Below are positions 1 through 21,718 of a stretch of 22,174 bases of DNA, in pieces. This DNA comes from a virus, in the IMG/VR virus record IMGVR_UViG_3300046455_000371, positions 1 to 22,174 of that record. One strand, written 5' to 3'. Both the position numbers and the translations under genes were made by a program. Below the pieces are notes generated by a model. That model saw only the letters and a list, made by a program, of their open reading frames with translations. It was not told the origin of the DNA and did not search any database. Position 1 is the stretch's first letter. Every line of letters begins with the position of its first letter.

Positions 1-103
1 GCACCTATTAAAATGAAGTAGAGTAAGTGCTAGGGGGTTGAGGGATGTCGTAGAGTCTCTTGTACTGAACGGCGAGGTACCTTACACTGTCCGCTATATG
101 AAT
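1..103. repeat. Left arm of a 103-bp perfect inverted repeat
   Basis: Bases 1-103 are the exact reverse complement of 21102-21204; position i pairs with 21205-i and identity stops at 104 (T opposite C). The other arm is the last 96 bases of the terminase gene plus 7 downstream bases. The match reaches the first base of the window, so the true repeat may be longer. It may be real, or an assembly fold-back at a contig end. Confidence 0.97.
8..103 (-). pseudogene. Inverted fragment of the TerL C-terminus
   Basis: On the minus strand this encodes the last 31 residues of the terminase large subunit plus its TAA stop (8-10), identical to 21102-21197. It starts at the codon for the Ile before the H-I-A-D nuclease motif and ends in STSF. 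There is no start codon or upstream coding sequence, because the tRNA begins at its inner end. It is not a functional gene; it is a by-product of the inverted repeat. Confidence 0.85.
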
Positions 104-173
104 TAGAGATCGTCTAAAGGTAGGACTAATCCCTTTGAAGGATTCAATGGTGGTTCGAATCCATCTCTCTAAA
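103..173 (+). tRNA. tRNA-Gln (anticodon UUG)
   Basis: A full cloverleaf can be drawn. The acceptor TTAGAGA (103-109) pairs with TCTCTAA (166-172). The D-stem GTCT/GGAC has a 7-nt loop containing GG. The anticodon stem AATCC/GGATT holds the loop CTTTGAA with anticodon TTG at 135-137. A 4-nt variable loop follows, then T-stem GGTGG/CCATC with the canonical loop TTCGAAT. The discriminator is A173 and no CCA is encoded. The weak U1-A72 pair is typical of bacterial tRNA-Gln. It would read CAA/CAG; CAA is by eye the dominant Gln codon in the structural genes, so it may support late translation. Its first base is the last base of the inverted repeat. Confidence 0.93.
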
Positions 174-394
174 GTTTATGGTAATCGCGGTGTGGACAGT
201 GACACACAATGCGAAATGATGACTTGTAATGCGTAAAGAGAAAGCGCTTACTTTCTCTGAACGAGCCCTAAAACAAGCATGGTATCCATCAGAGCCAGTA
301 TTTTAGCGACAAGTATTAGAGTGACTTGGAGATCTTCTCTAACTCTATAGAGATTGCTTGAGATATCTAGCCAGTGCAATTCTGGTCGATTACC
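174..394 (+). ncRNA. Possible structured RNA with tRNA-like closing domain
   Basis: No ORF is supported here. GTAATCG (181-187) pairs perfectly with CGATTAC (387-393), extended by G180-C394. Two bases later GTGT (190-193) pairs with ACAC (202-205) around an 8-nt loop. Directly 5' of the 3' acceptor strand, GCCAG (370-374) pairs with CTGGT (382-386) around the 7-nt loop TGCAATT. This is the spacing of acceptor, D and T arms in a tRNA, with about 160 nt between them in place of an anticodon arm. Internal hairpins lie at 237-258 (8 bp, 6-nt loop) and 336-353 (6 bp). The T-loop is not TTCRANY and position 8 is not U, so it is neither a standard tRNA nor a recognisable tmRNA. It could be a chance fold. 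Confidence 0.3.
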
Positions 395-402
395 AAATTT
401 TA

Positions 403-470
403 TGGCCAAAAATACTTCTCGTCCTTATCTAGGAAGGTGGTAACCACTCCAAGAGAGGGAAAATAGGCCA
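403..470 (+). other. Folded leader upstream of the 71-residue gene
   Basis: TGGCC (403-407) pairs with GGCCA (466-470) and encloses two adjacent hairpins: TCCT/AGGA (422-434, 5-nt loop) and GTGG/CCAC (437-447, 3-nt loop). The ribosome site AAGGA follows at 477-481. It may be a structured 5' leader or a processing site. No T-run follows, so it is not an intrinsic terminator. Confidence 0.3.
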
Positions 471-491
471 CCAATTAAGGAAATAAAATAA

Positions 492-707
492 ATGAGTCTC
501 ACCCCAGCAGATGATGCACGTACCGCAAGAGAACGTAAAGAAGCAGTTGAATTATGTGGTAAGAATAGAGGCCCACATGATTACATTCCCATTGAATGGT
601 TGATGACAGCTACAAGTAAAAGAATTACACGCATGATGTGTCGTATTTGTTTCAATCATGTAACTATCATGAATCTTTTAGAAAATGCTCAAGAGGTTAG
701 TTATTAG
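492..707 (+). CDS. Small Cys/His protein, possible zinc ribbon
   Basis: A 71-residue protein with no recognised function. It carries a single Cys at 22, a PHD element, and an M-C-x2-C-F motif near residues 48-53, a layout common in small phage zinc-ribbon proteins. Only three Cys and one nearby His are available as zinc ligands, so metal binding is plausible but unproven. The start has AAGGA about 10 bases upstream, a rather long spacing. The TAG stop (705-707) overlaps by 11 bases the stop end of the leftward endolysin gene, so the two are convergent. It is the first protein gene after the tRNA and the non-coding leader. Confidence 0.6.
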   Translation: MSLTPADDARTARERKEAVELCGKNRGPHDYIPIEWLMTATSKRITRMMCRICFNHVTIMNLLENAQEVSY

Positions 708-1161
708 TAAATGAGTGATATCTACAAAGAGATTGATCTTTATCAACTCTACCTAGAACTGTGTTATAATGGGTTTTGTAATATTCCCAGAATTGTTCCT
801 GGTTCGCCTTTTGCGGAATCGGTTCTAGAACGCGTGCGTAGTGAATACGAGTCATTGCGGTTGCAAAACGAAGATCATAAATAAGTCTATATTCATCTGG
901 AATTCTGTTTACATCAAAGTTTGAATGTAAACGCATATACAGACTAGACTTTCCAATAAGATAATTTTGCCAGATGTCATGATATGATTCTGGACACATA
1001 CCATAGATGCCTAATCCTTTGGCATTTGTAATGGAAGATCCCCCATTAGATTCAACTGCACAAGTAAAAACTAATAGTTCAACAGCATCATCAGAAAGCA
1101 TAATGAGATCTTCTAAAGCAGGCTTGATGATTAATTCTCTCAATTGTTCTATATTAAACAT
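697..1161 (-). CDS. Endolysin-like lytic transglycosylase
   Basis: A 154-residue protein resembling phage peptidoglycan-cleaving enzymes of the goose-lysozyme/SLT type. The candidate catalytic Glu is E37 in AVESNGG, preceded by a hydrophobic helix. It is followed by a GLGIYGMCPES segment (about 50-58), equivalent to the G-L-x-Q-M-x-P-A motif, then DIWQNYL. The C-terminal YYKTHYNT..G stretch (about 127-137) is typical of a phage family with this layout. It has no signal peptide or membrane segment, so export would need a holin, and none is recognised here. AAAAGGA sits about 7 bases before the ATG. It is the only complete leftward gene and faces away from TerS. Its likely role is host lysis; a virion-associated wall-degrading role is also possible, because the gp16-like protein has no visible transglycosylase domain. 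Confidence 0.75.
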   Translation of the reverse strand: MFNIEQLRELIIKPALEDLIMLSDDAVELLVFTCAVESNGGSSITNAKGLGIYGMCPESYHDIWQNYLIGKSSLYMRLHSNFDVNRIPDEYRLIYDLRFATAMTRIHYARVLEPIPQKANQEQFWEYYKTHYNTVLGRVDKDQSLCRYHSFTNN

Positions 1162-1211
1162 GGCAAATCCTTTTAGGATAGTATAGGATTAATACAATTA
1201 TAAGGAATGGT

Positions 1212-1793
1212 ATGATACTTGATCCAGAAGTAATGTTTAAGAAAATTAAATTCAAACCTACAAAATATAATGAAAAACTCCATTGTCCATTGATACTAAA
1301 AATCATGCTAAACAAAGGCAGATGCAGTGCATTCTGTTGTGAAGTATTAATCGATGAATCAATATTTTATAGATGGATAAAAGCTAATCCACTCTTTGCT
1401 ATATGTTATGGATTAGGAAAGATGTTTGCACGTGAGGCATGGGAAAAAGAAGGCGAAGACATTCGTGAAGAAACAAATCCTCCTGGAGTTATCAGTCACA
1501 AATTCGAACATTGGAAGATGATTGGATGGTCAAGATTTGGTATAAGTAAGAACTCTCGTATCAAACTTGATCTAGATCCAACAGCTAATCCTAGTCAGCA
1601 CTATTCACAACTTTTAGTACAAGCCGCTAATGGTGATTTTACAGCTAGTGAAATCAAACAATTGATGGAAGCGGTTAATGTTGGGTTAAATACTCATCAA
1701 GTATTCGAGTTACAAAAACAAATAGATGAGCTAAAATCTGATCTAGCGACGATGGTAAGTAATCAAAATGGCAACGATACTGTCGCAAATTAA
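1212..1793 (+). CDS. Terminase small subunit (TerS)
   Basis: A 193-residue DNA-recognition subunit of the packaging motor. Residues about 36-62 form a helix-turn-helix-like segment ending in FYRWIKANP, the pattern of phage TerS N-terminal domains that bind pac/cos DNA. A W-x3-G-W-x-R-F segment follows at 101-109, then an acidic/polar linker and a helical tail with E-I-K-Q-L-M-E-A and LQKQIDELKSDL (about 147-180), suited to ring oligomerisation. AAGGA lies 5 bases before the ATG. The 50-bp gap to the divergent endolysin gene contains TACAAT (1193-1198), a possible -10 without a good -35. It opens the rightward late block and is about 18 kb from TerL. Identification rests on the HTH, length and position just before the portal gene. 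Confidence 0.75.
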   Translation: MILDPEVMFKKIKFKPTKYNEKLHCPLILKIMLNKGRCSAFCCEVLIDESIFYRWIKANPLFAICYGLGKMFAREAWEKEGEDIREETNPPGVISHKFEHWKMIGWSRFGISKNSRIKLDLDPTANPSQHYSQLLVQAANGDFTASEIKQLMEAVNVGLNTHQVFELQKQIDELKSDLATMVSNQNGNDTVAN

Positions 1794-1902
1794 AGAACTT
1801 CGTAAGAAGATAAAGATTCCATGGCGTATTAAATATGTGACAAAAGAAATATTGCCGGAAGAGTTTGAAGAAAAGACAATTTATGTTCATATATGGATTT
1901 AA
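1768..1902 (+). CDS. Hidden 44-residue basic protein
   Basis: An ATG at 1768 opens a 44-codon frame ending in TAA at 1900-1902. It overlaps the last 26 bases of TerS and fills the otherwise empty gap before the next gene. The product is Lys/Arg-rich in its first half (LRKKIKIPWRIKYV), with an acidic patch (PEEFEE) and a hydrophobic end, YVHIWI. There is only a weak GGTAAG upstream, so translation would probably be coupled to TerS. No homology is recognised. Filling the gap exactly and using ordinary codons argues for a real gene, but the length is weak evidence. Confidence 0.5.
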   Translation: MATILSQIKELRKKIKIPWRIKYVTKEILPEEFEEKTIYVHIWI

Positions 1903-1917
1903 TGAGAGGGAACCTAA

Positions 1918-2235
1918 ATGAGTATTTGGGATACGATTAAGAATGTATATAAAAGTCCGTTCGATGTCAGTAAAGGTATTATTAATACCGTCACAGGCAA
2001 ACCTGATAAAAACCAACAAAAGTTAATTAATGAGCAAATTAAATCTTATCAAGAACAATCGAAGCTTGCTAAAGATGAATTAGCAAAAGCAAAAGATCAA
2101 CAAATTGCTGAAAAAAGACGGATACAGGAAAAACAAATTAGGTCATTAAGAGGAAGAGGAAGTTCCAGAGGATTCTTAGGATCAAGCAACCCTGAACCAG
2201 GTAATGCAGGACTGAGCAATCAATTAGGTGGTTAA
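1918..2235 (+). CDS. Small virion-associated protein upstream of portal
   Basis: A 105-residue hydrophilic protein. Residues 1-30 contain SIWDTIKNV and VSKGIINTVTG; a long Lys/Gln/Glu-rich predicted coiled coil follows (about 33-76). It ends in a basic Arg/Gly/Ser segment (RGRGSSRGFLG) and the C-terminus LSNQLGG. Small proteins with a charged middle and an R-G-x...L-G-G tail commonly lie beside portal genes in podovirus-like phages, but their role is unsettled. GAGAGGG precedes the ATG by 7 bases. The portal ATG begins 3 bases after this stop, so the two are translationally linked. Confidence 0.7.
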   Translation: MSIWDTIKNVYKSPFDVSKGIINTVTGKPDKNQQKLINEQIKSYQEQSKLAKDELAKAKDQQIAEKRRIQEKQIRSLRGRGSSRGFLGSSNPEPGNAGLSNQLGG

Positions 2236-2238
2236 AAC

Positions 2239-3894
2239 ATGGATACGACGCAAGGAATGCCGCCGGTTGCAATGCCTGCAGGCTCAATGCTAGAGATATT
2301 GAGAAAACGTTATAATAGAGCAAAGTATGTTGCAGATTTGTGGATTCCAATCATGCAAGCTTCGTTCTTTTATGCGGTGCCTTTTAGAAATCGTTACTAT
2401 TTACCTGGAAAAGAATTTCAAGGTACGACTCAAAATACACGTGTATATGATACGACAGCTGTTGAAGGTGTAACAGTATTTGTATCTAAACTTCATGACA
2501 CCATGACACCCCCACAAGTGCAATGGGGTTATCTTGAAGTTGATGATAGCATGGTCGATGATCCAGAATCAGAACAAAATGTTCCTCTTCTTCAAGAAGC
2601 ACAATTAATTTTAGATGCTTATATGAGGCGTCTATTTACTTTTATTCATGCCTCTAATTTTGATGTGGTAATTAATGAGTGTTACTATGACTTATCTATT
2701 GGTACTTCTGCCCTTGTTATTAATCAGCATACTGATGATCAGCCTTTTTTGTGTACTTCTATCCCGATGGATAAACTTGCAATTGAAGAGGCGGTCAATG
2801 GCAATATTGAATCCTGGTTCAGAACATGGCAAAACCTAAAGATCATCGAGCTTCATACACGTTGGCCTGGTATTGTCATTACTCCTAATTTACAAGCACT
2901 CATTGCAGCTGATCCTGATGCTGTAGTTAGAAATGTATATGAGGGGGTGGCTTATTTTTGTAATCAACCAAAGAAATATTGTTATGCAGTATGGGCTGAT
3001 AATGATTTATTATTCACTCAGTGGCTCGATTCAAACCCTGGTATTGTTTGGCGTTTCAAGAAAACAAACAATGAAACCTGGGGTCGTGGTCCAGTTATGG
3101 AAGCATTGCCTACTATTATCTCTTTAAATGAAATGGCGAGAGTCGAACTTGCTTCAGCTAATCTTAATACTTTTAGACCTTACATGGGCTTTAGTGACGC
3201 TGTATTTAATCCTCATACGTTCCAATTACAACCCTTCACTATTATTCCAATTGCTCCTATTGGTACAGGTGGTCAGGTTCCTCTTATACCCTTACCTAAT
3301 AGTGCTGATCCGAACTTTGCGCAAATGACCATGGCCGATTTGCGTATGCAAATTAAATCATTACTCTTTGCTGAACAACCACAAGATTCACGAAGTGTGC
3401 AACCAGCAACAACTTATGAACTTTCTATTAAGCAACAAAGTTTAGCTGAAAAGATTGGTCCTTTATTTTCTCGTATGCAACAAGAGTTCTTATGGCCTGT
3501 CATTAAAAGATTCGCTCACATTTTGCATACCATGGGTAAATTACCGTATCCAGATGTCGGTGGTGTTCCTATAATCTTCAAGTACAAATCACCTTTAGCA
3601 TTAGCCAAAGGAAGAGCTGAAGTTGAAAGATTTACGCAATGGGTACAATTGATGCAAGGTATTATGGGCCCTGATGCAACCCAACTTTACATTAATCCGG
3701 AAACTACACCTTATATGCTTGCTGAAAAAATGCAAGTCGATGAAAGATTTTTAAATAAACCTGAAGATGTGAAACGAGTCGCTCAATCATTACAAGATCA
3801 ACATAATGAAGCGAAACTGGCTCAATCAAGTGGAATGATGCCAGCACCACCTGAAAACCCAGCTCAAAGTCCTATAGCCCCACCTGTTCAATAA
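2239..3894 (+). CDS. Portal (head-to-tail connector) protein
   Basis: A 551-residue portal of the podovirus head-tail connector family (T7 gp8-like). It would form the dodecameric ring at one capsid vertex through which DNA enters and leaves. The N-terminal part has LRKRYNRAKYVADLWIPIMQ and an R-x2-YYLPG element, then YDTTAVEGV and KLHDTMTPPQVQWGYLEV, the pattern of connectors in this family. The middle holds TNNETWGRGPVMEALPTIISLN (split here as a recognisable connector core), and the C-terminal region is rich in Gln, Pro and Ala. Length is normal for the family. AGGTGG about 8 bases upstream serves as ribosome site, inside the end of the preceding gene. It is followed by the Bbp19-like, scaffold and capsid genes, the usual head order. 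Confidence 0.9.
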   Translation: MDTTQGMPPVAMPAGSMLEILRKRYNRAKYVADLWIPIMQASFFYAVPFRNRYYLPGKEFQGTTQNTRVYDTTAVEGVTVFVSKLHDTMTPPQVQWGYLEVDDSMVDDPESEQNVPLLQEAQLILDAYMRRLFTFIHASNFDVVINECYYDLSIGTSALVINQHTDDQPFLCTSIPMDKLAIEEAVNGNIESWFRTWQNLKIIELHTRWPGIVITPNLQALIAADPDAVVRNVYEGVAYFCNQPKKYCYAVWADNDLLFTQWLDSNPGIVWRFKKTNNETWGRGPVMEALPTIISLNEMARVELASANLNTFRPYMGFSDAVFNPHTFQLQPFTIIPIAPIGTGGQVPLIPLPNSADPNFAQMTMADLRMQIKSLLFAEQPQDSRSVQPATTYELSIKQQSLAEKIGPLFSRMQQEFLWPVIKRFAHILHTMGKLPYPDVGGVPIIFKYKSPLALAKGRAEVERFTQWVQLMQGIMGPDATQLYINPETTPYMLAEKMQVDERFLNKPEDVKRVAQSLQDQHNEAKLAQSSGMMPAPPENPAQSPIAPPVQ

Positions 3895-3908
3895 CAAGGA
3901 AATAATGA

Positions 3909-4226
3909 ATGTCGATTGATAAGAACCCTTTGATACAGCCTGAAAATTATTTTGAAGGATACGCAAAAAGTGCAGAAGCTTTAAAAAATAATCCAGAGAT
4001 TATAGAATTTGACAAACTTTGTTATGAATTGTTTGAACACCAAGAAGCTGGAAGAAAATTTATAGAGATCATCACTAATCGTTATTTATTAGCACCATTA
4101 GGTTCGCCAGGTTCGCCTACCTTTTCTCAAGATGTCATGTGGGGAGAAGGATTACGATATGCCTTTTTACTTCTAAGAAATTCTGTACGCGCACATCAAC
4201 AAAGAATAAATGCTCAAGGACGTTAA
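3909..4226 (+). CDS. Bbp19-like phage structural protein
   Basis: A 105-residue protein. The core F-x-H-Q-E-A-G-R-K-F-I-E-I-I (about 42-56), followed by an S-Q-D-V-M-W-G-E-G-L-R-Y segment (74-85), matches the small family named after Bordetella phage gene bbp19, in which a conserved F....G...L...L...F.EG.R.....I pattern is seen. Members lie between portal and scaffold genes, as here. Their exact role in the virion is not established. AAGGA lies about 9 bases before the ATG; an ATG four bases earlier runs into a stop within four codons. The downstream gene starts one base after this stop. Confidence 0.7.
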   Translation: MSIDKNPLIQPENYFEGYAKSAEALKNNPEIIEFDKLCYELFEHQEAGRKFIEIITNRYLLAPLGSPGSPTFSQDVMWGEGLRYAFLLLRNSVRAHQQRINAQGR

Positions 4227-4227
4227 T

Positions 4228-4905
4228 ATGAGTGAAGAAGAAACGATACAAACCCCTCTATGGTTTATTGATGAGGGAATTCCAGGTGTGGGTAATAGAC
4301 CTGGTTGGTTGCCTGATAAATTTAAGACGACTGCTGATTTAGCAAAAAGTTATCATGAGCTTGAAAAAAAAGTAGGTACTGTACCTGATGATTATGATTT
4401 TAGTAAATCTAAATATCTTGATCCAGATTACGTTCCTTTTCATGAGTTAAAACAGATTGCTAAAGATAAACGTGTACCTCAAGAAGTCATTGATAAGATG
4501 CTTGAATCCGTTGATAAATACATGGATGAGTTTACTATTGATGACAGAGAAGAAATTAATAAACTAGGTGCCAATGCTCAAGATCGTTTAACTACATTAA
4601 ATAATTGGGCTAAAGCCAATTTAAGTAATGATTCTTATGAGGCACTTACCTACAATTTACGAAGTGCTGAATCAGTCAAAGCACTCGAAGAACTAAGGAA
4701 TAAATTTATGTCAGGTGCAACACAAATCCCTAATGGTAACGATGGTGCTATTCATAATGCTGCATCATTAGAAGATATCAAATTAGAACTTACAAATAAT
4801 CTACAAAAATATAAAGATGATCCAAACTATCGAAGGGATCTACAAGGTCGATTAGAGATTGCTGCTAAAAATGCTGGTGGATATATTGACAAAATGGGCG
4901 CGTAA
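4228..4905 (+). CDS. Capsid scaffolding/assembly protein
   Basis: A 225-residue acidic protein. It has W-F-I-D-E-G-I-P-G, then R-P-G-W-L-P-D-K-F-K-T-x-A-D-L-A-K-S-Y-H-E-L-E-K-K-x-G near the N-terminus, the signature of phage capsid assembly scaffolds. The remainder is helical and charged, with a D/E/K-rich C-terminus ending GGYIDKMGA. Scaffolds direct MCP shell assembly and leave before or during packaging. The frame is open 18 bases further upstream, but the ATG at 4228 is preferred: AAGGA stands about 9 bases before it, and it starts one base after the previous stop. It lies between the Bbp19-like gene and the MCP, where scaffolds are expected. Confidence 0.82.
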   Translation: MSEEETIQTPLWFIDEGIPGVGNRPGWLPDKFKTTADLAKSYHELEKKVGTVPDDYDFSKSKYLDPDYVPFHELKQIAKDKRVPQEVIDKMLESVDKYMDEFTIDDREEINKLGANAQDRLTTLNNWAKANLSNDSYEALTYNLRSAESVKALEELRNKFMSGATQIPNGNDGAIHNAASLEDIKLELTNNLQKYKDDPNYRRDLQGRLEIAAKNAGGYIDKMGA

Positions 4906-5051
4906 TATGGTATGATTCAAAAAGTACCAATTGATAATTGGACAACTTCTGAGCATTGACCTCAATTTTTGAGACAATCACATGTGCTTAAAGCCCAAAA
5001 ATACAATGGTGAAATAGGATATTTCATTAATAATTTTTGGAGATTTAAGTT
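4906..5051 (+). promoter_or_regulatory. Intergenic hairpins ahead of the capsid gene
   Basis: This 146-bp gap is one of the longest within the late block. It holds two close hairpins: CCAATT-GAT-AATTGG (4927-4941, 6 bp) and CTCAA-TTT-TTGAG (4961-4973, 5 bp). Neither has a terminal T-run. TTGACC (4956-4961) and TACAAT (5002-5007) resemble promoter boxes but are 40 bases apart. The gap may hold a processing or stability element, or a phage-specific promoter, that raises capsid expression. Confidence 0.35.
5028..5042 (+). repeat. Repeated ribosome-site leader, copy 1
   Basis: The 15-mer TAATAATTTTTGGAG precedes the MCP start. An identical copy at 5886-5900 precedes the decoration protein start. 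It ends in the ribosome site GGAG and has an A/T-only upstream part, typical of strongly translated genes. Confidence 0.7.
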
Positions 5052-5888
5052 ATGTCTACCTCATTGACTGCGGTGCAACAAATTGAGTTTGATGCTCTCG
5101 TAAAAGCCGAATATCAATCCTTAGGTTTTTTATTGCGCGATACAGTACGCGTTAGACGCGATGTTATCGGTGCAACCGTTTCTTTCCGTAAAGTAGGTCA
5201 AGTACAAGCTGTACCTACAGGTTATTTACAAACAGTTGTTATTCAAGATCCTAATTACACTCAATCATCTGCTATATTACAGAAATATACTGCACCTACA
5301 GCTGTTGATAGTGTTCAAGAGTTAACTGTTAATTTCGATGCTAAGATGGAAAATGCCATGTTAGTTGCGAATGCTTTAGGTCGAAGATCCGATCAAATCA
5401 TCATTAATTCACTCGGTGTAAATCCAGGCCAAACCATTGTAGCGGGTGGTGTGAATATGACTTATACAAAATATCGTCAAGTCATTCAGTTCTTTGATAA
5501 TAATGCAGTGCCATTACCTGAAAGATTCTGGGCAATGAGTGCTAGTAATTTTGCAGCACTCTTAGCAGATGATCATTTCGTATCAACTTTCTATACTCAA
5601 AATAGAGTATTAGATAAAGGATTTGTTCGTGAATTCTTAGGTGTAAACATTATCATTATTCCTGCAATGGTTGAAGGTGGATTACCATTCGCATCTGCTA
5701 ACATACGTCAAACCTATGCTTGGCACAAACAAGCAACAGGTATGGGTATTGGTCATGATTTCAGAACAGAAATCAATTATTTGCCTCGTGAAACATCTTG
5801 GTTGATAAATGGAATTTTCAGTGCAGGTGCTATCACTATTGATAACCTGGGTATTATCCAAGTTAACTGCGATGAAACCTCAATCTAA
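5052..5888 (+). CDS. Major capsid protein
   Basis: A 278-residue shell subunit, presumed HK97 fold. Features: N-terminal helix TAVQQIEFDALVKAEYQ; a basic loop DTVRVRRDVIG followed by the strand ATVSFRKVGQ (E-loop-like); P-T-G-Y-L-Q; LTVNFDAKMENAMLVANALGRR (spine-helix-like); a mid-domain with RFWAMSASNFAALL; and a C-terminal region W-H-K-Q-A-T-G-M-G-I-G-H-D-F-R-T-E-I-N followed by the final beta strands. The last block (histidine-tryptophan, then T-E-I-N-Y, then GAITID..GIIQV) recurs in podovirus MCPs. The length is short but within range. The ribosome site GGAG is about 9 bases upstream in a repeated leader. Position after the scaffold supports the call. Confidence 0.88.
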   Translation: MSTSLTAVQQIEFDALVKAEYQSLGFLLRDTVRVRRDVIGATVSFRKVGQVQAVPTGYLQTVVIQDPNYTQSSAILQKYTAPTAVDSVQELTVNFDAKMENAMLVANALGRRSDQIIINSLGVNPGQTIVAGGVNMTYTKYRQVIQFFDNNAVPLPERFWAMSASNFAALLADDHFVSTFYTQNRVLDKGFVREFLGVNIIIIPAMVEGGLPFASANIRQTYAWHKQATGMGIGHDFRTEINYLPRETSWLINGIFSAGAITIDNLGIIQVNCDETSI

Positions 5889-5900
5889 TAATTTTTGGAG
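5886..5900 (+). repeat. Repeated ribosome-site leader, copy 2
   Basis: Identical to 5028-5042. Its first three bases are the TAA stop of the MCP, so the motif spans the gene boundary. It sets the start of the next gene at ATG 5910 rather than the in-frame TTG at 5895, which lies inside the motif. Confidence 0.7.
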
Positions 5901-5909
5901 TATTTAAAC

Positions 5910-6785
5910 ATGGCTTATACCGATGCAAATTGGACTTGTGTCTCTTCTGCTTTAAACGAAGGTCAAATAACAGTGACACCTTTTGGTGGTTCACCAACCG
6001 TATTAAACGCACCTAATATTTTTATATATGGCTCACCCAACGATACAGTAGCGACTGCTTCAGCTGCGAATTATTTCCTTTCTAAATATGCAGTGTTAAA
6101 AGTAGGTGATTGGATTTTAGTCAATGGAACAGATGCAAGTACCATTTTAATTATAGTCACGTCTTCTTCAACAGGTGTGACAACTGCTGGATTTGCAGCA
6201 ACAGGTACTGTTAATACTGCAAATATTGTGAATAACGCTGTGACATATGCAAAAATGCAACAAGCATCAGCTTCCACATTACTTGGCAATCCAACGGGTG
6301 TTTTAGCTAACGTTTCTGAAATTACCTTAGGTGCAGGTTTATCATTTAGTGGAACAACATTACAACTACCATTAACTTACCAACGCTATGCAGCAGTCAC
6401 TGTTTCTTCAGCTGAATTTCTTGGTATGTTTGCAGCACCTAAATTATTAGTTGCAGCAGGGGGTGCTAATACTTTAATCGTACTTGATAAGTTAGATTTG
6501 TTGATGACATTTGTATCGACTAACTACGCAGCTGGTGGAGTTGTAGCAGTACAATATGACAGCACAATAAATGGTGCAGGTGTTATTGCTTCGACCACAC
6601 GAGTCGCAGCAGATTTCTTTGCAGCAGCAAGTACTGGATTTGGATTCAATATGGGTGTTGTAGCACAAGCATTTACAACCTGTGTAAACAAGGGATTGTA
6701 CTTGAGTAACATTACAGCGGCATTTACCACTGGTAATAGCACATTTGTTGCTCATATCTGGTATAAAGTTGTACCAACGGTATAA
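5910..6785 (+). CDS. Capsid decoration or head-fibre-like protein
   Basis: A 291-residue protein rich in Ala, Thr, Val and Gly, predicted mostly beta. Residues 1-100 include an N-terminal YTDANWTCVSSALNEG element and alternating strands. Around 108-150 is a tail-fibre-type linker: NAVTYAKMQQASASTLLGNP, then EITLGAGLSFSGTTL. A C-terminal beta domain follows (about 160-291) with a FLGMFAAP start and a final HIWYKVVPTV strand. Immediate position after the MCP, the shared leader, and composition suggest a cement, decoration or capsid-fibre protein on the head. The linker motif is more often seen in receptor-binding fibres. The start at 5910 follows GGAG by 9 bases. The exact structural role is inferred from position. 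Confidence 0.6.
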   Translation: MAYTDANWTCVSSALNEGQITVTPFGGSPTVLNAPNIFIYGSPNDTVATASAANYFLSKYAVLKVGDWILVNGTDASTILIIVTSSSTGVTTAGFAATGTVNTANIVNNAVTYAKMQQASASTLLGNPTGVLANVSEITLGAGLSFSGTTLQLPLTYQRYAAVTVSSAEFLGMFAAPKLLVAAGGANTLIVLDKLDLLMTFVSTNYAAGGVVAVQYDSTINGAGVIASTTRVAADFFAAASTGFGFNMGVVAQAFTTCVNKGLYLSNITAAFTTGNSTFVAHIWYKVVPTV

Positions 6786-6809
6786 TCTTTATACTTAAGG
6801 AGAGACGGT

Positions 6810-7415
6810 ATGGCCTATAGCAAAACTTCCATTATTAGTTTGGCAGTGATGTTATTAGGCCATAATCCCATTCAAACTCTTGATAATGCTGATGATCTTG
6901 TCATATCTGCTGAACAAGCTTATGACATTTTATTACCCAGTGTACTTGCAACAGGTAATTGGCGTTTTTCGATAAAAATTGAACAATTAGTATTGTCTAC
7001 TCAGATCCCACCACTTCAAACTAATTGGCAAAATATTTATTTATTACCTGCAGGCTATTTAAAGAATATTCGAATTATTCCTCAGAACTATGTTTATGAG
7101 ATTTATTCGAATAGTCAGATATGGTGTAACTGGGGTACTCAGTCACCTATTTTCATGGAATTTGCTTATTTACCACCCTTGGCAACCATTCCAGCTCCAT
7201 TTATTAATTATTTTATTTATGAAATAGCATGTTTCTTATGTTTATCAAGTGCTCAAAAACCGGATTACTTCACAGCATTGCAGACTCAAAAACAAATACA
7301 ATGGGCTATTGCTGCAGCAGCAGATGCACAAAATAGACCACAATTTGTTGAAAGGCAAATCCCTATGCTTACTAAGAGAAACATTGGCGGTATTATTGGT
7401 CCACAAATAGGTTAG
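6810..7415 (+). CDS. Tail tubular protein A (T7 gp11-like adaptor)
   Basis: A 201-residue adaptor that would bind under the portal and start the short tail. The N-terminus SIISLAVMLLGHNPIQTLD, then AYDILLPSVLATGNWRFSIK (about 38-57), is the characteristic start of gp11-like proteins: a helix with L-L-G-x-x-P-I, then the W-R-F strand. Next come a WQNIYLLPAGYL segment and a C-terminal helical region with FINYFIYEIACFLCLS. Length is normal for the family. The start is clear, with AAGGAG 7 bases upstream. A small hairpin GTATA/TATAC (6780-6794) lies just before the ribosome site. It precedes the nozzle protein gene, the standard order. Confidence 0.88.
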   Translation: MAYSKTSIISLAVMLLGHNPIQTLDNADDLVISAEQAYDILLPSVLATGNWRFSIKIEQLVLSTQIPPLQTNWQNIYLLPAGYLKNIRIIPQNYVYEIYSNSQIWCNWGTQSPIFMEFAYLPPLATIPAPFINYFIYEIACFLCLSSAQKPDYFTALQTQKQIQWAIAAAADAQNRPQFVERQIPMLTKRNIGGIIGPQIG

Positions 7416-7424
7416 TCATGGAAT

Positions 7425-9944: not shown

Positions 9945-9963
9945 TTATAAAAAGGAGTTGATC

Positions 9964-10470: not shown

Positions 10471-10473
10471 CAC

Positions 10474-12894: not shown

Positions 12895-12905
12895 GAGTTT
12901 GATTT

Positions 12906-15900
12906 ATGGATGAAATTAAAGATCAAGAAAATGAAGAAAATAATGATATTATTTCACTTCAAGCTCCTATAAAAGATTTTGGGACTATTAAGAAAGTTGA
13001 AGATGATCCTGCAAGATTATTCAATATTCCTTTTCCTGTTGAAGTACCTTATCAAGATCAGTATCACGAATATTTTCAAGGTGAAACGTTCAAACCTGCT
13101 TTTCCTACCGGTCATGAACAAATTGGCGCATGGGAATCTTTAAAACAAGGTTTTAATGCCGTCAATGATTTTAGTTTGATGTATAATAGTCAAACAAATA
13201 ATGATAATCCTCTTTATGATGTTGTCCCGCCTGGATGGAAGGCCGCTGATGATGAAGAAGTTTTTAATGGTATCGATGATATTTATAAAGGTTATCTGTT
13301 AGCTGCAACTTCTCCTAAAGATTTAAAAAGACGTCAATATCAAGTCATTGGATGGATGAATGATACAAAACGTTATGAAGATGGTTCTATGCTTTATCAT
13401 GCGATTGGTATGTTAGGGGGTGGTGCTGTTAGTCCAACCACTTGGATTCCCTTAGGTGCTGAAGTTAGAGCGGCTCATTTAGGTAAGCGATTAGCCCAAG
13501 ATATACCTAACATTGTACCTGGGATTGCCGTAGGTTCCGCATTACATGAATATGTTGAAGAAACCAATAAAATTAATGGAAGTATTGAAGAATATATAAC
13601 CAATACTTTTAGAGATACTATTTTTGGTGTTGCCTTTATGGGTGGTGCGATGGGTTTAAGCCATGCTTATAATGGTGGAAAACTTTATAATGCTAAACGA
13701 ATTGTGAATCTAAACGGTAATGATATTGATTTAAAACCTATCATTGGTGAAGACGGCACCATCATTGGCATAAAAGCATTGTCAAGTAGTGCAGGTGCTG
13801 CTGAACTTTCTTTTGCACAAGAATTTGCAAATTCAACGATGGCACAAAAAGGTTTATTTGGAATCCCTGTTATCGGTGGATGGCTTGGTAAGGGTGCAGC
13901 GACTGTTAATCCTATCATTCGTGGACTTAACTCTGTATTTCCTTCTGTTGCTGCTTATTGGGATAGATCAGCTGATCATGGTATTGTCACTACAGGTAAC
14001 ATAAAAGGTATCGCATCACCTGATAAAGTCGAAGTTAAACTTGAAATATTAAAAGGTGATAATCGTATCTTTATGAATTGGCTTACAGGTATGCATCTAG
14101 TTCGTAATGGACTTGATCCAAGTCAACGTATGAGATCAGGTTTTAAAGAAGCACATATGCGCTGGAAAGATGAAGGTTATACTTCACCTGAGCAATTTAT
14201 GGATGAAATTGAGGATGTCATTATTAATGATACACCAAGTGTCCATGCAGCAACGAATGAAGCCGCTGAAGCCATTAAAACCAAATATGCTGAAAGTTGG
14301 GAGGCTTACCGAGATGCCTATGACCTTCCAAAAGAATTTACATTACCAAAAACTGCTAAAGGTTATTTGACTCGTGTCTATGATTTAGATTATTTAAGTG
14401 TCAATGAGAATCATTGGAATGAAGTAGTTATTGATTACCTTACAAAAGCTGATGCTACTATTGCTGAAAAAATGCAACCTATTAGAGATTTAGAAGCTAA
14501 CTATAAATTAGTCAAAGAACAGCATAATATCAATAAAGGTAATATGACTCCTGAAGAAAGAAAAGTTTCAGCTGATTTAGTAAACAGTATGAAAAAGCAA
14601 TTACAAGGAAAAGAAAATGCTTTGCAGAATGAATTGCGTACTAATGAAGCTTTAAGAATTCATGTTGAAGATCATTTCGCATTATCAGCTAAAGAAGCTA
14701 GCCAATTAAAAAATATTTTAAAACCTTTAAATAAATTAAAGCAAGAACAAAAGTCTTTAAGAAATGCTATTAAATCAACCAATTTTTTAAAATTAAAAGA
14801 AGAAGGTGTGCTTACTAAGGATAATGTACAAGTCTTAAAGAAAATTGAAAGTGATTTAATGAAACTCAAAGATGAATTAAGAACTTTAGATGGCAAGATA
14901 GATCAAGAAAATTTACGACTACAACAAGCAGTTGAGGATAAAAAAATATCGTCTTTATTTTATACTCGTCAACAAGGTACTAATGTAGTCAAATTTAAGA
15001 ATCCTAAAGAACGATTAAAACTTCGTCAAGAATATGAATCTGAACATCATAGAAAGGAAGCATCTAAGGCTTATTACCGTTCTATTACTAATCAAACTGC
15101 TGAAGATACCATTAATCAAATGATGGGAACATTAACATCTGGCATGACTCCTAATCCTATTAAACAAAGATCTATTATGTTGCCTGATGATTTGCTATAC
15201 ACGAATAAATTTTTAAGCAAGAAGTTGGGGGTGAATGTTGCCAACTATCGGATGTATCTGGGTAGGCGGACATTCATTAAAAATATTTTTAAAGATGTTT
15301 CTATTGATGGTGATGTTGCTCCTTTAGCTCGTGCTGCTAATGAAGATTTTTTAGCTATGAAAGCTGTATTGGATACCAAGAAAGCAAATACAAAATCAAA
15401 AAAAGAAATACTAAAAATTGATAAAGATATTATTCAACTAGAAAAGTTATTTAAAAGAGATATTGAAGATATGTCTCTTAACTTTAATAAGTTGATGGGT
15501 GTGACGACAGGTAATCAAAAGATTCGTAAATATACTAATGATATTCGTAATTATGCAGTATCTACTCAATTAGGTGCTACCACTTTAACTATGATTACCG
15601 ATTTAATGGGAGTTGTCTTTAAACATGGCTTTTGGCCTTCTATTAGAGATGGCGTTATTCCTCAACTTAAAAATATAGCAAATATTGTCAAGCAAGGAAA
15701 AGGTGAGAATTACATTAAAAATGCCGGTCATGCAGGCTTAGGATTAAATCATGTTTTGTCTGGAATGAGTGATAGAAATGCTGGGGGTGTGGCTCAACCT
15801 TACATGCCAGTTTCAGGTCGAATATCTACTGGTCTTGAAAAAGTAGCTCATATAAGTACTAACTTATCTTTAATGAATCATGTTGAAAATGCTTACCAAG

Positions 15901-16757
15901 AACTCACAGCTTCCATTATTCAAAGCAAAATCATTAGTCATATGATTAATTTTAAAGCAGGTAAATTAAGTCCAAAGGATAAAGAAAAATTATTGATCTA
16001 TGGATTACAACCTGAAATTTGGGCTGATAAGATTGTTGCTGCGTGGAAGAAAGCAGGCAGTGATAAAAATGGTTCAGGTGGTTATCAGAGTTGGTATTGG
16101 AAATGGGATGATAAAGAAACTGCGAGTAAATTTGCTGAAACTATTTTTAGAGGGACAAAAGATACCATTATAAGACGCGGTATGTTTGATGCACCTTTTG
16201 CCTTAGATGATCCTATTCTTGGGATGTTATTTATGTTTAAAGGTTTTTTCATGGCCTCTTTCACTCGCTACCTTATTCCTTTAATGCAAAGACCTGATGC
16301 TGAAAAGCTTGTGGGTACTCTATTAATGATGGGTATGGGTGCAATGGTAACTCCATTAAGAAGATTAGCAAAAGGTGAAGAACCTATCCAAGAAGATGAT
16401 AATATGTTCTGGAATGCTATGGTTGATGGAAACGTTTTTTCATCGGTCACTGATACTTTAGAATATGTTAATGTATTGATGGGCGGTAACTTATTAAAAG
16501 ATATACGCAATGATAGATATAAAGATAGGACTATTGCAGGTTTTTTAGCCGGTCCTGTAGGTGGTATGGGTGATAATTTTGTACATATACTCAAGATGCT
16601 ATCAAGTGGGAATTTTAACCAATCTGATGTTAATAAAGTAGCTAAGTTAATCCCTTGGGCGCAGATTTGGCAATTAAGATATTTAAGTAAAAAACTAGTT
16701 GAATCGACGGGATTACCAGAAACTTACTCAGATGCTGAAGCAATGAATTATCAGTAA
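12906..16757 (+). CDS. Internal virion protein, T7 gp16-like
   Basis: A 1283-residue protein, the largest in the window. It has an acidic N-terminus; glycine-rich hydrophobic stretches near residues 160-255 (LGGGAVSP, FGVAFMGGAMGLSHAY); a long charged coiled-coil region (about 520-675) rich in Lys and Glu; and a C-terminal part with MLFMFKGFFMASFTRYLIPL (about 1104-1123), then LMMGMGAMVTPLRRLA. The C-terminal F-K-x-F...R-Y-L-x-P pattern is shared by gp16-like ejection proteins. In T7, gp16 enters the inner membrane and helps pull in DNA. No E-S-x-x-G/G-x-x-Q-x-x-P transglycosylase motif is visible at the N-terminus, unlike T7 gp16. The ribosome site is weak (AAGAG 8 bases upstream). Confidence 0.82.
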   Translation: MDEIKDQENEENNDIISLQAPIKDFGTIKKVEDDPARLFNIPFPVEVPYQDQYHEYFQGETFKPAFPTGHEQIGAWESLKQGFNAVNDFSLMYNSQTNNDNPLYDVVPPGWKAADDEEVFNGIDDIYKGYLLAATSPKDLKRRQYQVIGWMNDTKRYEDGSMLYHAIGMLGGGAVSPTTWIPLGAEVRAAHLGKRLAQDIPNIVPGIAVGSALHEYVEETNKINGSIEEYITNTFRDTIFGVAFMGGAMGLSHAYNGGKLYNAKRIVNLNGNDIDLKPIIGEDGTIIGIKALSSSAGAAELSFAQEFANSTMAQKGLFGIPVIGGWLGKGAATVNPIIRGLNSVFPSVAAYWDRSADHGIVTTGNIKGIASPDKVEVKLEILKGDNRIFMNWLTGMHLVRNGLDPSQRMRSGFKEAHMRWKDEGYTSPEQFMDEIEDVIINDTPSVHAATNEAAEAIKTKYAESWEAYRDAYDLPKEFTLPKTAKGYLTRVYDLDYLSVNENHWNEVVIDYLTKADATIAEKMQPIRDLEANYKLVKEQHNINKGNMTPEERKVSADLVNSMKKQLQGKENALQNELRTNEALRIHVEDHFALSAKEASQLKNILKPLNKLKQEQKSLRNAIKSTNFLKLKEEGVLTKDNVQVLKKIESDLMKLKDELRTLDGKIDQENLRLQQAVEDKKISSLFYTRQQGTNVVKFKNPKERLKLRQEYESEHHRKEASKAYYRSITNQTAEDTINQMMGTLTSGMTPNPIKQRSIMLPDDLLYTNKFLSKKLGVNVANYRMYLGRRTFIKNIFKDVSIDGDVAPLARAANEDFLAMKAVLDTKKANTKSKKEILKIDKDIIQLEKLFKRDIEDMSLNFNKLMGVTTGNQKIRKYTNDIRNYAVSTQLGATTLTMITDLMGVVFKHGFWPSIRDGVIPQLKNIANIVKQGKGENYIKNAGHAGLGLNHVLSGMSDRNAGGVAQPYMPVSGRISTGLEKVAHISTNLSLMNHVENAYQELTASIIQSKIISHMINFKAGKLSPKDKEKLLIYGLQPEIWADKIVAAWKKAGSDKNGSGGYQSWYWKWDDKETASKFAETIFRGTKDTIIRRGMFDAPFALDDPILGMLFMFKGFFMASFTRYLIPLMQRPDAEKLVGTLLMMGMGAMVTPLRRLAKGEEPIQEDDNMFWNAMVDGNVFSSVTDTLEYVNVLMGGNLLKDIRNDRYKDRTIAGFLAGPVGGMGDNFVHILKMLSSGNFNQSDVNKVAKLIPWAQIWQLRYLSKKLVESTGLPETYSDAEAMNYQ

Positions 16758-16768
16758 AAGGAATTTAT

Positions 16769-19411
16769 ATGAGTCAAACAATTATCAATGATGTGCCACC
16801 CTATACGCAAGCTTCAGCTAGTGGAGGCCAAACAGTCTTTGGCACAAATTGGACCGCAAATGCTGAATCAGATGTCATTGTTTTTGTTACACCTGTAGGT
16901 GATGAGCCTAACGATGCCATACAAATATTATCTTTTCCAAGTCAATACTCTGTGACATTTGTCGGTGCTTTACAACAAGTTCAGGTCACTTTAGTGACGC
17001 CTTCTACATTAGGTGATATTGTTACAGTCATTCGCATGACACCTTCTGACCGTGAAAATCTTTATAGCAATACTAATTTTTTACCCAGTATGCTAAATAA
17101 TGATTTTGGTATTTTGACTTTAGTTGATCAACAAAATCAGCTTGTCAATCAGTATGTAGGACCTCGATATAATTATTCAGCAACGATTATACCCACTCTT
17201 GATACTATTTTACCCATTCTTGGAGCTAATCAATTTTGGGGTAAGAACTTAACAGATACAGCCATTATTGCTATTGATATAGAAGATATTATCAGTGGTG
17301 GAACAGTCACTCAAATAGATACAGGAACAGGATTAACAGGTGGTCCCATTACCACTGTAGGTACTATTTCATTTGCACCCATAGCTGCTAATTCTTTATG
17401 GGCTAATATGACAGGGGGTATTGCTGTTCCAACCGTCACACCTTTATCTAGTTTGGCAGGTCTTATTCTTCCTCCAACTTCTACCGCTCGCCAGATGCTT
17501 CAATCACAAGCATTAGCCGATCCTGTTTGGTCAACAGCAACATGGCCTGCTACCACTAGTATAAATCAAATTTTATACAGTTCAGCTAATAATGTTGTGA
17601 GTCAGATTGCGGGTGCAAACAATAGTGTTTTAATCACTGGTGTTTCAGGCATACCAAGTTTAAGTACAACATTACCACAAGCAGTACAAACCAATATTCA
17701 ATATTTAGGTGTGCAGAATCAAAACTTAAATATGGGCGGTTTTCAGATTAATAGCATGGCTGAACCTACACAGCCTTCTGATGCTGCAACTAAAAGTTAT
17801 GTGGATCTAAATGCTTTAACAGGCACTTCAGCCTATGCTGCAACTACGACTAATCTCACGGTTACACAATCCGGTTCCGGAGTAGGTGCTACCTTAACGA
17901 ATGCGGGTGTACAAGCAGTCTTTGCTATAGATGGTGTGAATCCACCTTTGGCATCACTCGTATTAATAAAGAATTTAGCCGCACCACAAAATGAAGGAAT
18001 CTACTCAGTCACTAATGTGGGATCTGGTGCAACAAACTGGGTATTAACTCGAGCAACCACTTTTGACACGCCTGCTGAAATTAATCAAACGGGTTTAATC
18101 ATTATTCAAAATGGCGCAACTCTTGCGGGAACTGCTTGGTTTAATACTGCAACTATTGTCACAGTCGATGTGACCCCATTTATTTTTTCTCAATTTGGAA
18201 ATATTGTATTTCCAGTGTCACTTGCAAATGGTGGTACCAATGCTAGTTTAGTTGCAAGTGCTGGTTCAATTGTTTATAGCACACCTACTGCGATGGCATT
18301 CAGTGCAGTGGGTTCAACGGGTCAATTGCTTAGATCAACAGGTGCTACTGCTCCAGGCTGGACAACGGCTACTTATCCATCAGTTGCGATATCTACAGGA
18401 AGTTTTATTTATGCCAATGGAACAAATTTTATAGCCTCTACTTCTTTGTGGCCTAATACAGTAGGCTTAGCAGGCAACATTATTAGATCTAATGGTACTA
18501 TAAATAATTACAGTACAGCAACATTTGCAGATACTTATGCTGCAAGTAATTTACTTTATTCGAATGGTGCAAACACTGTAACAGGTCTTACAAGCGTCAA
18601 TTCAGCTTCATTAATTACTAATTCAACAGGCGTTCCCGCGTGGTCTGCAACCATGACAAATGGACAGGTCATTATAGGCAGTACTGGATCAACTCCTACG
18701 GCTGCGACTTTGACTGCCGGTACTAATATTTCTATCACTAATGCTGCTGGAAGCATTACTATTGCGGCAAGTGGCCCAGCATCTAATGCCATTAATCAAG
18801 TAGTCGTACGAACATTTACAGCTAGTGGCACTTATACTCCAACTACAGGCATGAAATATTGCACGATTGAGTGTCTTGGGTCTGGAGCTGGTGGTGGAGG
18901 GACTGCTCTCTCAAGTGCATTTAGTCAAGGCGGAGGTGGTGGTGCTGGATCATATTCCAGAAAAACGGCATCTGCTGCAACAATAGGGGCATCTCAAGTT
19001 GTGACGGTAGGAAATGCAGGAACAGGAGGTGCTGCAGGAAATAATAATGGTAATCCTGGTGGTGATGTTTCTGTTGGAATTATATGCGTAGGCAAAGGTG
19101 GCTCAGGTGGCACAGGAACTCCTGCAAATAGTGCGGGTAACGGAGGTCTTGGTGGAGTTGCGGGGACAGGAGATATTGCAGCAACTGGAGCTCCAGGTAT
19201 GTTTGGTATGGGTGGAACTACTAACACTTCAACACCATTTTGTGGTCAGGGTGGATCTTCTATGTGGGGTGCTGGTGGCAGATATCGTAGTGCTGCATCA
19301 GGTTTTGGAGCTGGCGGTTCAGGCGGCGCTTCAGTTTCATCGAGTGCAGCTGACGCTGGTTTTGATGGTTCAAAAGGATTTGTTGTAATCACTGAATATT
19401 TATCTGTTTAA
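16769..19411 (+). CDS. Tail fibre with glycine-rich tip
   Basis: An 880-residue receptor-binding fibre. The N-terminal domain (about 1-150) reads PYTQASASGGQTVFGTNW, then VIVFVTPVG and VTLVTPSTLGDIVTVIRMT, the T7 gp17-type tail-attachment domain. The shaft contains GTGLTGGPITTVGTISF and several repeats of a T-A-T-x-P...L-Y-S-x-x-x-N-x-V unit. It also has a QINSMAEPTQPSDAATKSYV linker (about 324-343) and an inserted module of about 120 residues (about 350-474) with LASLVLIKNLAAPQNEGIYSV. The last 180 residues begin with VRTFTASGTYTPTTGMKYC and are Gly-rich (GSGAGGGG, GGGGGAG, GGSGGTG), as in adhesin tips that fold as polyglycine helices. The tip probably sets host range. AAGGA is 8 bases upstream. 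Confidence 0.88.
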   Translation: MSQTIINDVPPYTQASASGGQTVFGTNWTANAESDVIVFVTPVGDEPNDAIQILSFPSQYSVTFVGALQQVQVTLVTPSTLGDIVTVIRMTPSDRENLYSNTNFLPSMLNNDFGILTLVDQQNQLVNQYVGPRYNYSATIIPTLDTILPILGANQFWGKNLTDTAIIAIDIEDIISGGTVTQIDTGTGLTGGPITTVGTISFAPIAANSLWANMTGGIAVPTVTPLSSLAGLILPPTSTARQMLQSQALADPVWSTATWPATTSINQILYSSANNVVSQIAGANNSVLITGVSGIPSLSTTLPQAVQTNIQYLGVQNQNLNMGGFQINSMAEPTQPSDAATKSYVDLNALTGTSAYAATTTNLTVTQSGSGVGATLTNAGVQAVFAIDGVNPPLASLVLIKNLAAPQNEGIYSVTNVGSGATNWVLTRATTFDTPAEINQTGLIIIQNGATLAGTAWFNTATIVTVDVTPFIFSQFGNIVFPVSLANGGTNASLVASAGSIVYSTPTAMAFSAVGSTGQLLRSTGATAPGWTTATYPSVAISTGSFIYANGTNFIASTSLWPNTVGLAGNIIRSNGTINNYSTATFADTYAASNLLYSNGANTVTGLTSVNSASLITNSTGVPAWSATMTNGQVIIGSTGSTPTAATLTAGTNISITNAAGSITIAASGPASNAINQVVVRTFTASGTYTPTTGMKYCTIECLGSGAGGGGTALSSAFSQGGGGGAGSYSRKTASAATIGASQVVTVGNAGTGGAAGNNNGNPGGDVSVGIICVGKGGSGGTGTPANSAGNGGLGGVAGTGDIAATGAPGMFGMGGTTNTSTPFCGQGGSSMWGAGGRYRSAASGFGAGGSGGASVSSSAADAGFDGSKGFVVITEYLSV

Positions 19412-19452
19412 AAAAATTAATTATAATAAATATTATTGTATAATAAAAAATT
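19409..19452 (+). promoter_or_regulatory. AT-only spacer with possible -10 boxes
   Basis: After the fibre stop, this stretch has only one G or C among roughly 40 bases. TATAAT occurs at 19422-19427 and 19439-19444. No -35 better than TTAATT is found about 17 bases before the second. It could be a promoter for the two small genes and TerL, or simply an A/T-rich ribosome-loading leader. Confidence 0.3.
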
Positions 19453-19468
19453 TAAGGAAATAGTAAAA

Positions 19469-19684
19469 ATGTCACAAGCTGAATTAGATGGTTTAATCGC
19501 TCAATTAGAAGCATCCAAACAAATGTACAATGAAGCTTTGAATACTTCATATCAACTTAGAACTGAAAATGTCATGCTAAAAAAACAAGTACAAACTTTT
19601 CTTGCTAATATGCAAAAGCAAGCTGAAGAAGCTACTAAAATTGTGGAAGAAGTTGTTGATCCAGATGTAAAACTTAAGGAGTAA
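19469..19684 (+). CDS. Small coiled-coil protein
   Basis: A 71-residue protein without Cys, Trp or His and with no membrane segment. Leu/Ile heptad spacing runs from LDGLIAQLEASKQM through LRTENVMLKKQVQTFLANM to an acidic tail with EEVVDPDVKLKE, so it is probably a helical oligomer. No family is recognised. In T7 the genes between fibre and TerL are a holin and TerS, but this one has neither a membrane helix nor an HTH. Start ATG 19469 is chosen because AAGGA lies about 10 bases upstream; the frame is open from a TTG at 19436, inside the AT-only spacer. Confidence 0.65.
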   Translation: MSQAELDGLIAQLEASKQMYNEALNTSYQLRTENVMLKKQVQTFLANMQKQAEEATKIVEEVVDPDVKLKE

Positions 19685-19688
19685 TATT

Positions 19689-19883
19689 ATGCCATTAATT
19701 CATAGTGCAGATAAGAAAGCGATTGGTAAAAATATTGCTATTGAAAAACATGCTCATCCAGAAATGGATATTAAACAAGCGGCTGCAATTGCTTTTTCTA
19801 CGCAAAGAGAAGCACAACGTCATTCTCATGAAGAACGTGAATCACCTAAGCATGAGCATGAAAAGTATAAATATGGAAGATAA
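19689..19883 (+). CDS. Small conserved phage protein with His-rich tail
   Basis: A 64-residue protein. MPLIHSADKKAIGKNI, then KQAAAIAFSTQR, matches a small family frequent in phages and bacteria (M-P-L-x-x-S-x-S/D-K-x-A-x-x-x-N-I ... K-Q-A-x-A-I-A). Its function is unknown. Here the C-terminal third is unusually rich in His, Glu and Lys (RHSHEERESPKHEHEKYKYG), which could bind metal or nucleic acid. AAGGAG precedes the ATG by about 7 bases. The frame is the same as that of TerL: after its single TAA stop (19881-19883) reading continues open into the terminase. Confidence 0.7.
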   Translation: MPLIHSADKKAIGKNIAIEKHAHPEMDIKQAAAIAFSTQREAQRHSHEERESPKHEHEKYKYGR

Positions 19884-19934
19884 TTTATCTATATAAAGAT
19901 TCCAAGCATAAATCCCTACCCTCACCAAGCACGA

Positions 19935-21197
19935 ATGTTTAAGGCTCTTATCAATGACCTAAACATTTGTGCTGTGATTCATAGACGTGCTGGTAAAGAT
20001 ATTTTTTGTATTGAAGCATGGGTACTCCGAGGTATTAAACGAGTCGGTACTCATGTTTACCTTTTTCCATTACACAAGCAGGCGCGTCAAGTTATTTGGC
20101 AAGGAATGGATTTTGATGGTCGACCTTTCATGGATGCTATTCCAGATGCACTTGTTGCTAAAAAAAATGAAGCCCGAATGGAGATTGAGTTGTTCAATGG
20201 CTCTAAGCTCGTACTTGCTGGTAGCAACAATTATGATGGGCTCATGGGGACTAATCCTGTTACCATTATTTACAGTGAGTTTAGCCTACACAATCCACTT
20301 GCACGCCAATACCTCAACCCCATTTTGGTTCAAAACAAAGGCAAAGAAATCCTCCAATACACCCCCAGAGGAATGAATCATGGTCATGAAGTCTTCATGC
20401 AAGTCAGAGATTTACCCGATTATCATGTCGAACATTTATCAGTTGAACAAACCTTTAAGCATGACGGTACGACTCGAATTATCACAACTGAAGATATCCA
20501 ACGTGCAAAAGATTTGGGGATGTCCGAAGAACTTATCAGACAAGAATTCTATGTCGATTTCGAAGTGGGAAATCTTGGTGCTTACTACACCCGTGAAATG
20601 AGTGATATGGATCGTGAAGGTCGTATATGTGCTCTCAAACCAGACCCACGACTTAAGCTACATTCTATTTGGGATTTAGGAGGAACTGATGCAACTGCTG
20701 GATTATTGTTTCAAGTCACCGGACGCTACATACATATTTTATACTTGCTTCATGATACGGGAAAAGGCCTTAAGCATTACTTGGACCTCGCCGAGCGAGT
20801 TCGTCAAAGTATGGGACTTGAGTGGGGCTATCATTTTGGACCTCATGATATTGACCAGAAACATCAAGGATGGGAAAGCACTGAGTCAAGATTAATGCAA
20901 GCTCGTAAGCATGGTTGGATGTTTCAAATGGTTCCTAAAGTAAACGTCGAGGATGGCATTGAAGCAGTAAGATATATGCTACCTAGAGTACGTATCGATA
21001 AACTTAACTGTAACCTACTGGTTCGGGCTCTACGTGAATATCAGCGGCATTACGATGATAAGAAAGCACGTTTTGATCCTAAGCCACTCGATAACTGGGC
21101 CATTCATATAGCGGACAGTGTAAGGTACCTCGCCGTTCAGTACAAGAGACTCTACGACATCCCTCAACCCCCTAGCACTTACTCTACTTCATTTTAA
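19935..21197 (+). CDS. Terminase large subunit (TerL), N-terminus uncertain
   Basis: The ATPase-nuclease motor that fills the capsid. From the ATG at 19935 (420 residues): Walker A HRRAGKD (16-22), Walker B-like IIYSEF with catalytic Glu 115, coupling motif YTPRG (142-146). RNase H-like nuclease acidic residues are D247 (WDLGGTD), D305 (GPHDID) and D394 (HIADSVRY). The conserved lead-in KIPSINPYPHQAR is coded in frame directly upstream (19896-19934), so the true N-terminus lies before 19935. No ATG, GTG or TTG exists in that frame after the TAA at 19881. An ATG at 19873 lies in the frame from which a -1 shift would enter TerL. Possible explanations are a non-AUG start, a shift near 19881-19887, or a lost base. 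GC content is higher than in the structural genes. The last 96 bases are duplicated inverted at the left edge. Confidence 0.92.
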   Translation: MFKALINDLNICAVIHRRAGKDIFCIEAWVLRGIKRVGTHVYLFPLHKQARQVIWQGMDFDGRPFMDAIPDALVAKKNEARMEIELFNGSKLVLAGSNNYDGLMGTNPVTIIYSEFSLHNPLARQYLNPILVQNKGKEILQYTPRGMNHGHEVFMQVRDLPDYHVEHLSVEQTFKHDGTTRIITTEDIQRAKDLGMSEELIRQEFYVDFEVGNLGAYYTREMSDMDREGRICALKPDPRLKLHSIWDLGGTDATAGLLFQVTGRYIHILYLLHDTGKGLKHYLDLAERVRQSMGLEWGYHFGPHDIDQKHQGWESTESRLMQARKHGWMFQMVPKVNVEDGIEAVRYMLPRVRIDKLNCNLLVRALREYQRHYDDKKARFDPKPLDNWAIHIADSVRYLAVQYKRLYDIPQPPSTYSTSF

Positions 21198-21204
21198 TAG
21201 GTGC
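21102..21204. repeat. Right arm of the 103-bp perfect inverted repeat
   Basis: Exact reverse complement of 1-103. It covers the final 31 codons and stop of TerL plus 7 bases downstream. This arm has a natural context, with continuous terminase coding sequence on one side, whereas the left arm does not, so this is presumably the original copy. Confidence 0.97.
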
Positions 21205-21440: not shown

Positions 21441-21444
21441 AATT

Positions 21445-21496: not shown

Positions 21497-21501
21497 AAGG
21501 A

Positions 21502-21713: not shown

Positions 21714-21718
21714 TAGAA

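Follow-up and report, generated by a model that had tools for sequence, protein, structure and literature searches.

An inverted repeat carrying the terL tail in a family of uncultured tailed phages, and its possible role in flipping the structural and replication halves of the genome

The structural module and its 103-bp inverted repeat

The analysed DNA (the window) is a whole IMG/VR contig of 22,174 nucleotides (IMGVR_UViG_3300046455_000371) and comprises the structural half of a podovirus-like phage, with the gene order portal, scaffold, capsid, tail and terL. Its nearest isolates are remote, with about 37% identity for TerL, about 36% for the capsid and about 29% for the portal protein, and there is no isolate in the family. 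A scan of a collection of genome contigs with the capsid protein revealed no relative. The features of the window are as follows (IR, inverted repeat; S, structural region; N, recombination/replication region).

1..103 (-), left IR arm: inner edge of the second IR copy, holding an orphan antisense copy of the terL tail (TerL C-terminal match at 11-106, minus strand); cut off by the contig end
103..173 (+), tRNA-Gln(TTG) at the inner edge of the left arm (ARAGORN; Rfam RF00005, 59.2 bits)
104..21101 (+), S region: single-copy structural module between the two IR copies
19935..21197 (+), terL, large terminase (phrog_2472 and phrog_2); its last 96 bp lie in the IR
21102..21204 (+), right IR arm: last 96 bp of terL plus 7 bp; inner edge of the complete IR copy, beyond which the contig continues for 970 bp
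21102..22174 (+), probable IR copy as far as the contig reaches (1073 bp), inferred from homology to the IRs delimited in relatives
21380..21439 (+), conserved GC-rich non-coding element of the IR with C-tracts (GAGAGTTGTGTGGCACCGGAATCC...ACCCCCCGTCCCCG...ACCCCCCTC)
21559..21586 (+), outward promoter-like site TTGACA-16-TATACT, matching the consensus at 11 of 12 positions
21615..21713 (+), short ORF (32 codons) after the promoter-like site, inside the probable IR

Bases 1-103 were found to be identical to the reverse complement of 21102-21204, confirming the observation made in the preliminary description. The match ends at base 103/104 (21102/21101) and cannot be followed outward because base 1 is the end of the record. 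It is the only exact repeat of 20 bases or more in the window, so chance is excluded. The preliminary description had also placed the tRNA-Gln directly at the left arm. The tRNA does begin at base 103, but this contact is peculiar to the present genome, since ARAGORN found no tRNA at this place in the relatives scanned. A broken acceptor stem was suspected at the junction, but ARAGORN showed the stem to be well paired.

Distribution and anatomy of the repeat in related contigs

To test if the repeat is private to this record, related contigs (numbered with the prefix G) were collected. A TerL scan of IMG/VR gave 29 related loci, and many of their contigs end within about 60 bp of the terL stop. 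Searching these records for the TerL C-terminus revealed a second, inverted, orphan tail 20-22 kb away in independent records, and further contigs were added by a capsid-alignment scan and a scan with an N-region protein. Of 66 group contigs, 26 carry a total of 32 distant inverted pairs of 60 bp or more, mostly an orphan terL tail inverted 20-23 kb from terL, whereas 0 of 64 background phage loci and 0 of 4 isolate records do. The background loci average 14.9 kb, shorter than the contigs, so this comparison is indicative rather than exact. The isolate records were the nearest isolates MEP301 (29.5 of 34.8 kb examined), Hodr, SI2 and CKB-S2. The remaining 40 group contigs show no arm pair, many of them being fragments lacking one or both S ends. 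In one subgroup (G017, G020 and G028), the arms lie downstream of terL rather than inside it. An exact scan with a sequence from the window's own IR revealed no other contig, and no near-identical contig was found; the N region and the full IR of the window are not part of the record.

Long records show two arm pairs, one around S and one around N, so that a second single-copy region is bounded by the other edge of the same IR. In these, the stretch from the outer edge of one pair to the outer edge of the other is the full IR, measuring 1193 bp in G008, 984 bp in G013, 1170 bp in G016, 539 bp in G034, 817 bp in G069 and 487 bp in G074; the G009 strain gives 1155 bp. The IR separates an S region of ~21 kb from an N region of ~7-12 kb. 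Its inner edge lies at different places in different genomes, as expected of expansion and contraction rather than of a fixed crossover site.

Most IRs hold the GC-rich element, which was found in the IR of about 20 records, always in the same orientation relative to the S edge and at either S end; it is strongly conserved, and a packaging or origin role is possible. One additional hit of the element, in a record showing no relation to the family, was disregarded. In 10 of 13 IRs with the element, the best outward sigma-70-like site lies 146-191 bp beyond it. Some of these sites are no better than in shuffled sequence, so the constant spacing is the stronger hint. A DnaJ-domain protein gene (about 169 aa; G009 21658-22167, with homologues in G016, G020, G052 and G053) lies inside or at the edge of the IR and would be present twice per genome. 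At the IR/N boundary of G009 (22189) and G052 (6813), the IR ends just after a ribosome-binding site and ATGAGT, giving the same start to different ORFs at the two ends of N.

N carries a RecE-like exonuclease (PF12684 in 12 of 20 records; phrog_412), RusA (11 of 20), a RecT match in G013 and an O-like replication initiator. A serine resolvase/invertase-type gene (PF00239) occurs in 2 of 20 records, namely G017 (26108-26677) and G020 (1825-2391; oriented coordinates), and was seen only in the subgroup whose IR edge lies downstream of terL; a tyrosine integrase (PF00589) was found in 0 of 20. Homologous recombination is thus the likely engine. In G003, an N-region ORF of 298 aa (2347-3243, oriented coordinates) resembles a cytosine DNA methyltransferase, as judged from its motifs by eye.

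Arrangement of S and N around the repeat

Comparison of near-identical contigs revealed the same IR+N joined to different ends of S. G009 and G053 are 100% identical over 6854 bp of S and 3789 bp of IR+N, yet IR+N is attached to the terL end of S in G009 and to the opposite end in G053. G052, which is at least 99.9% identical, shares S and the 1155-bp IR but continues into the other end of N. G054 and G055 share S and most of the IR (9619 bp at 99.95% and 364 bp at 98.6%) and then run into opposite ends of N, while G067 and G069 share N+IR (4168 bp, 100%) but continue into opposite ends of S. Among less close relatives, N appears in both orientations (G003 and G013 against G008 and G016). As a short-read assembler facing an IR longer than the insert may pick an exit arbitrarily, these contigs prove that four flanks share one IR and make alternative molecules likely rather than certain.

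In metagenome 3300020021, contig L307 (the non-terL end of S) and contig G015 (the terL end) abut in frame inside the scaffold gene with a 6-bp overlap and carry 434 bp of identical IR at their outer ends, so that at least this length of IR is present at both ends of S in one sample. Mismatched arm pairs in G017, G034, G036 and G065 show that the arms are separate copies. Arm identity within genomes is about 99.6%, while the first 400 bp of the IR average about 51% between strains, indicating that the copies are homogenised by recombination. No contig spans both complete IR copies.

Every arm pair touches a contig end, 30 of 32 arms are 127 bp or shorter, and many sit at 97-106 or 113-127 bp. 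This is what assemblers leave when a collapsed repeat is trimmed to a k-mer overlap; 99, 103 and 127 are k values in common assembler settings. The length of the left arm is therefore probably technical, inferred without knowledge of the assembler behind this record, while its existence is biological.

A quadripartite genome as the favoured model

We consider it likely, albeit not certain, that the 103-bp repeat is the visible edge of a larger IR of about 0.5-1.2 kb that is present twice per genome in this podovirus-like family and divides it into S and N as in a chloroplast genome. In this model, homologous recombination between the copies, probably by the phage's own RecE/RecT-type and RusA-type proteins or by host RecA, keeps them identical and flips S relative to N, giving two isomers. 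Because each copy carries the terL tail and an outward promoter-like site, terL and early expression should stay intact in either isomer. A single-junction model, by contrast, would by inference leave terL without its C-terminus in the flipped form, since the IR edge lies inside terL in most genomes. The analysis itself establishes IR sequence at both ends of S in one sample, full IRs of 487-1193 bp, same-strain contigs with both arrangements, and near-identity of the copies within genomes against deep divergence between them. That both copies lie on one molecule, that inversion is frequent, which enzymes act, and that the window follows the family pattern is inferred, as is expression in either isomer; flipping may serve replication or packaging or may be a by-product.

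The preliminary description had offered a fold-back assembly artefact, a recent inverted duplication, or an invertible or terminal structure of the phage genome, and this interpretation is partly supported. The invertible structure fits best, although it could not be seen from the window alone that the repeat is the edge of a longer IR, that it divides the genome into two regions, or that same-strain contigs show both arrangements. A terminal structure is unlikely, as contig ends within one strain differ by up to 136 bp and arm lengths cluster near assembler k values. A recent private duplication is rejected, because the arrangement is family-wide and kept identical within genomes. An artefact of library preparation or assembly could be suspected from the arms touching contig ends, but is rejected as the origin of the repeat: independent contigs from many metagenomes carry it at the same homologous place with different boundaries, longer contigs (G050, G054 and G055) contain internal orphan tails, arm pairs can be mismatched, and background loci lack it.

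Of the other explanations, a genome with two physical IR copies but one fixed arrangement, whose copies stay identical by gene conversion without crossover and whose alternative contigs are arbitrary assembler choices, is unlikely but remains the strongest rival. IRs of 487-1193 bp exceed usual short-read inserts, which makes the exit from the IR ambiguous, and contigs always stop in the second copy. On the other hand, N is reversed even between less close relatives, recombination genes are common in N, and, by inference, copies this well homogenised recombine, with gene conversion normally being accompanied by some crossovers. An HSV-like linear genome with one complete N-S junction, short inverted arms at its physical ends, and S and N each inverting would agree with G008, G013, G016, G069 and G074, which show outer arms of both pairs at their contig ends. 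We regard this as improbable, since contig ends vary within a strain (by 136 bp in G034/G035 and by 16 bp in G014/G016, which speaks against physical ends but is not proof), arm lengths cluster near assembler k values, and L307/G015 give at least 434 bp of IR at both ends of S. A T7-like organisation was not supported either, as no end-to-end direct repeat was found in group contigs, which may not reach the true ends; only the distant relative G029 has one. Site-specific inversion by a dedicated recombinase, as in phage tail-fibre switches, is very unlikely to be the general engine, because the serine resolvase/invertase-type gene of G017 and G020 is absent from the other 18 of 20 records, the repeat edges fall at different positions with no shared site, and the repeats are hundreds of bp long.

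IR-mediated isomerisation is known from plastids and herpesviruses. Most plant chloroplasts hold two orientations at equal frequency (PMC7145664), and share with the present family two identical inverted repeats around two single-copy regions, a truncated gene copy at the repeat edge, edges that shift between species and concerted evolution of the copies; the occurrence of both relative orientations here rests on the contigs described above, and the phage genome is about 32-37 kb with an IR of 0.5-1.2 kb. HSV-1 DNA likewise contains inverted repeats whose recombination reverses unique segments, but it is linear, with two components each bounded by its own repeats and four equimolar isomers (PMC8539067); here, one IR pair and two isomers fit better, and no physical ends were seen. 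The Campylobacter group II phages CP21 and CP220 have modules separated by 1-2.9 kb repeat regions, with modules of CP21 inverted relative to CP220 (PMC4546147); their genomes of about 180 kb contain four arrays of short repeat units, inversion was seen between species rather than as isomers of one strain, and there is no link to terL. Invertible segments flanked by inverted repeats occur in PhiH1/PhiCh1, PhiH1 having a recombinase-linked tail-fibre inversion and a historically reported invertible L segment (PMC6210493). The G segment of Mu and the C segment of P1 are further examples. Those known in detail switch tail-fibre genes through a site-specific recombinase, whereas here the whole structural half is the segment and no dedicated recombinase is conserved. 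No tailed phage built in a quadripartite manner was found in the literature searched, which excluded most subscription papers.

A more far-reaching reading, which we put forward only tentatively, is that a whole lineage of tailed phages keeps a chloroplast/herpesvirus-like quadripartite genome, in which IRs carrying the terL tail, the conserved GC-rich element and outward promoters make the two halves flip continually as part of replication or packaging, with expression that does not depend on orientation. Herpesviruses share their DNA-packaging ancestry with tailed phages. If confirmed, the architecture would offer a small system in which to test what such repeats do, be it recombination-dependent replication, packaging or copy correction. 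It would also explain why contigs of this family break at the end of terL and were never seen to circularise, which bears on how viral contigs are judged complete.
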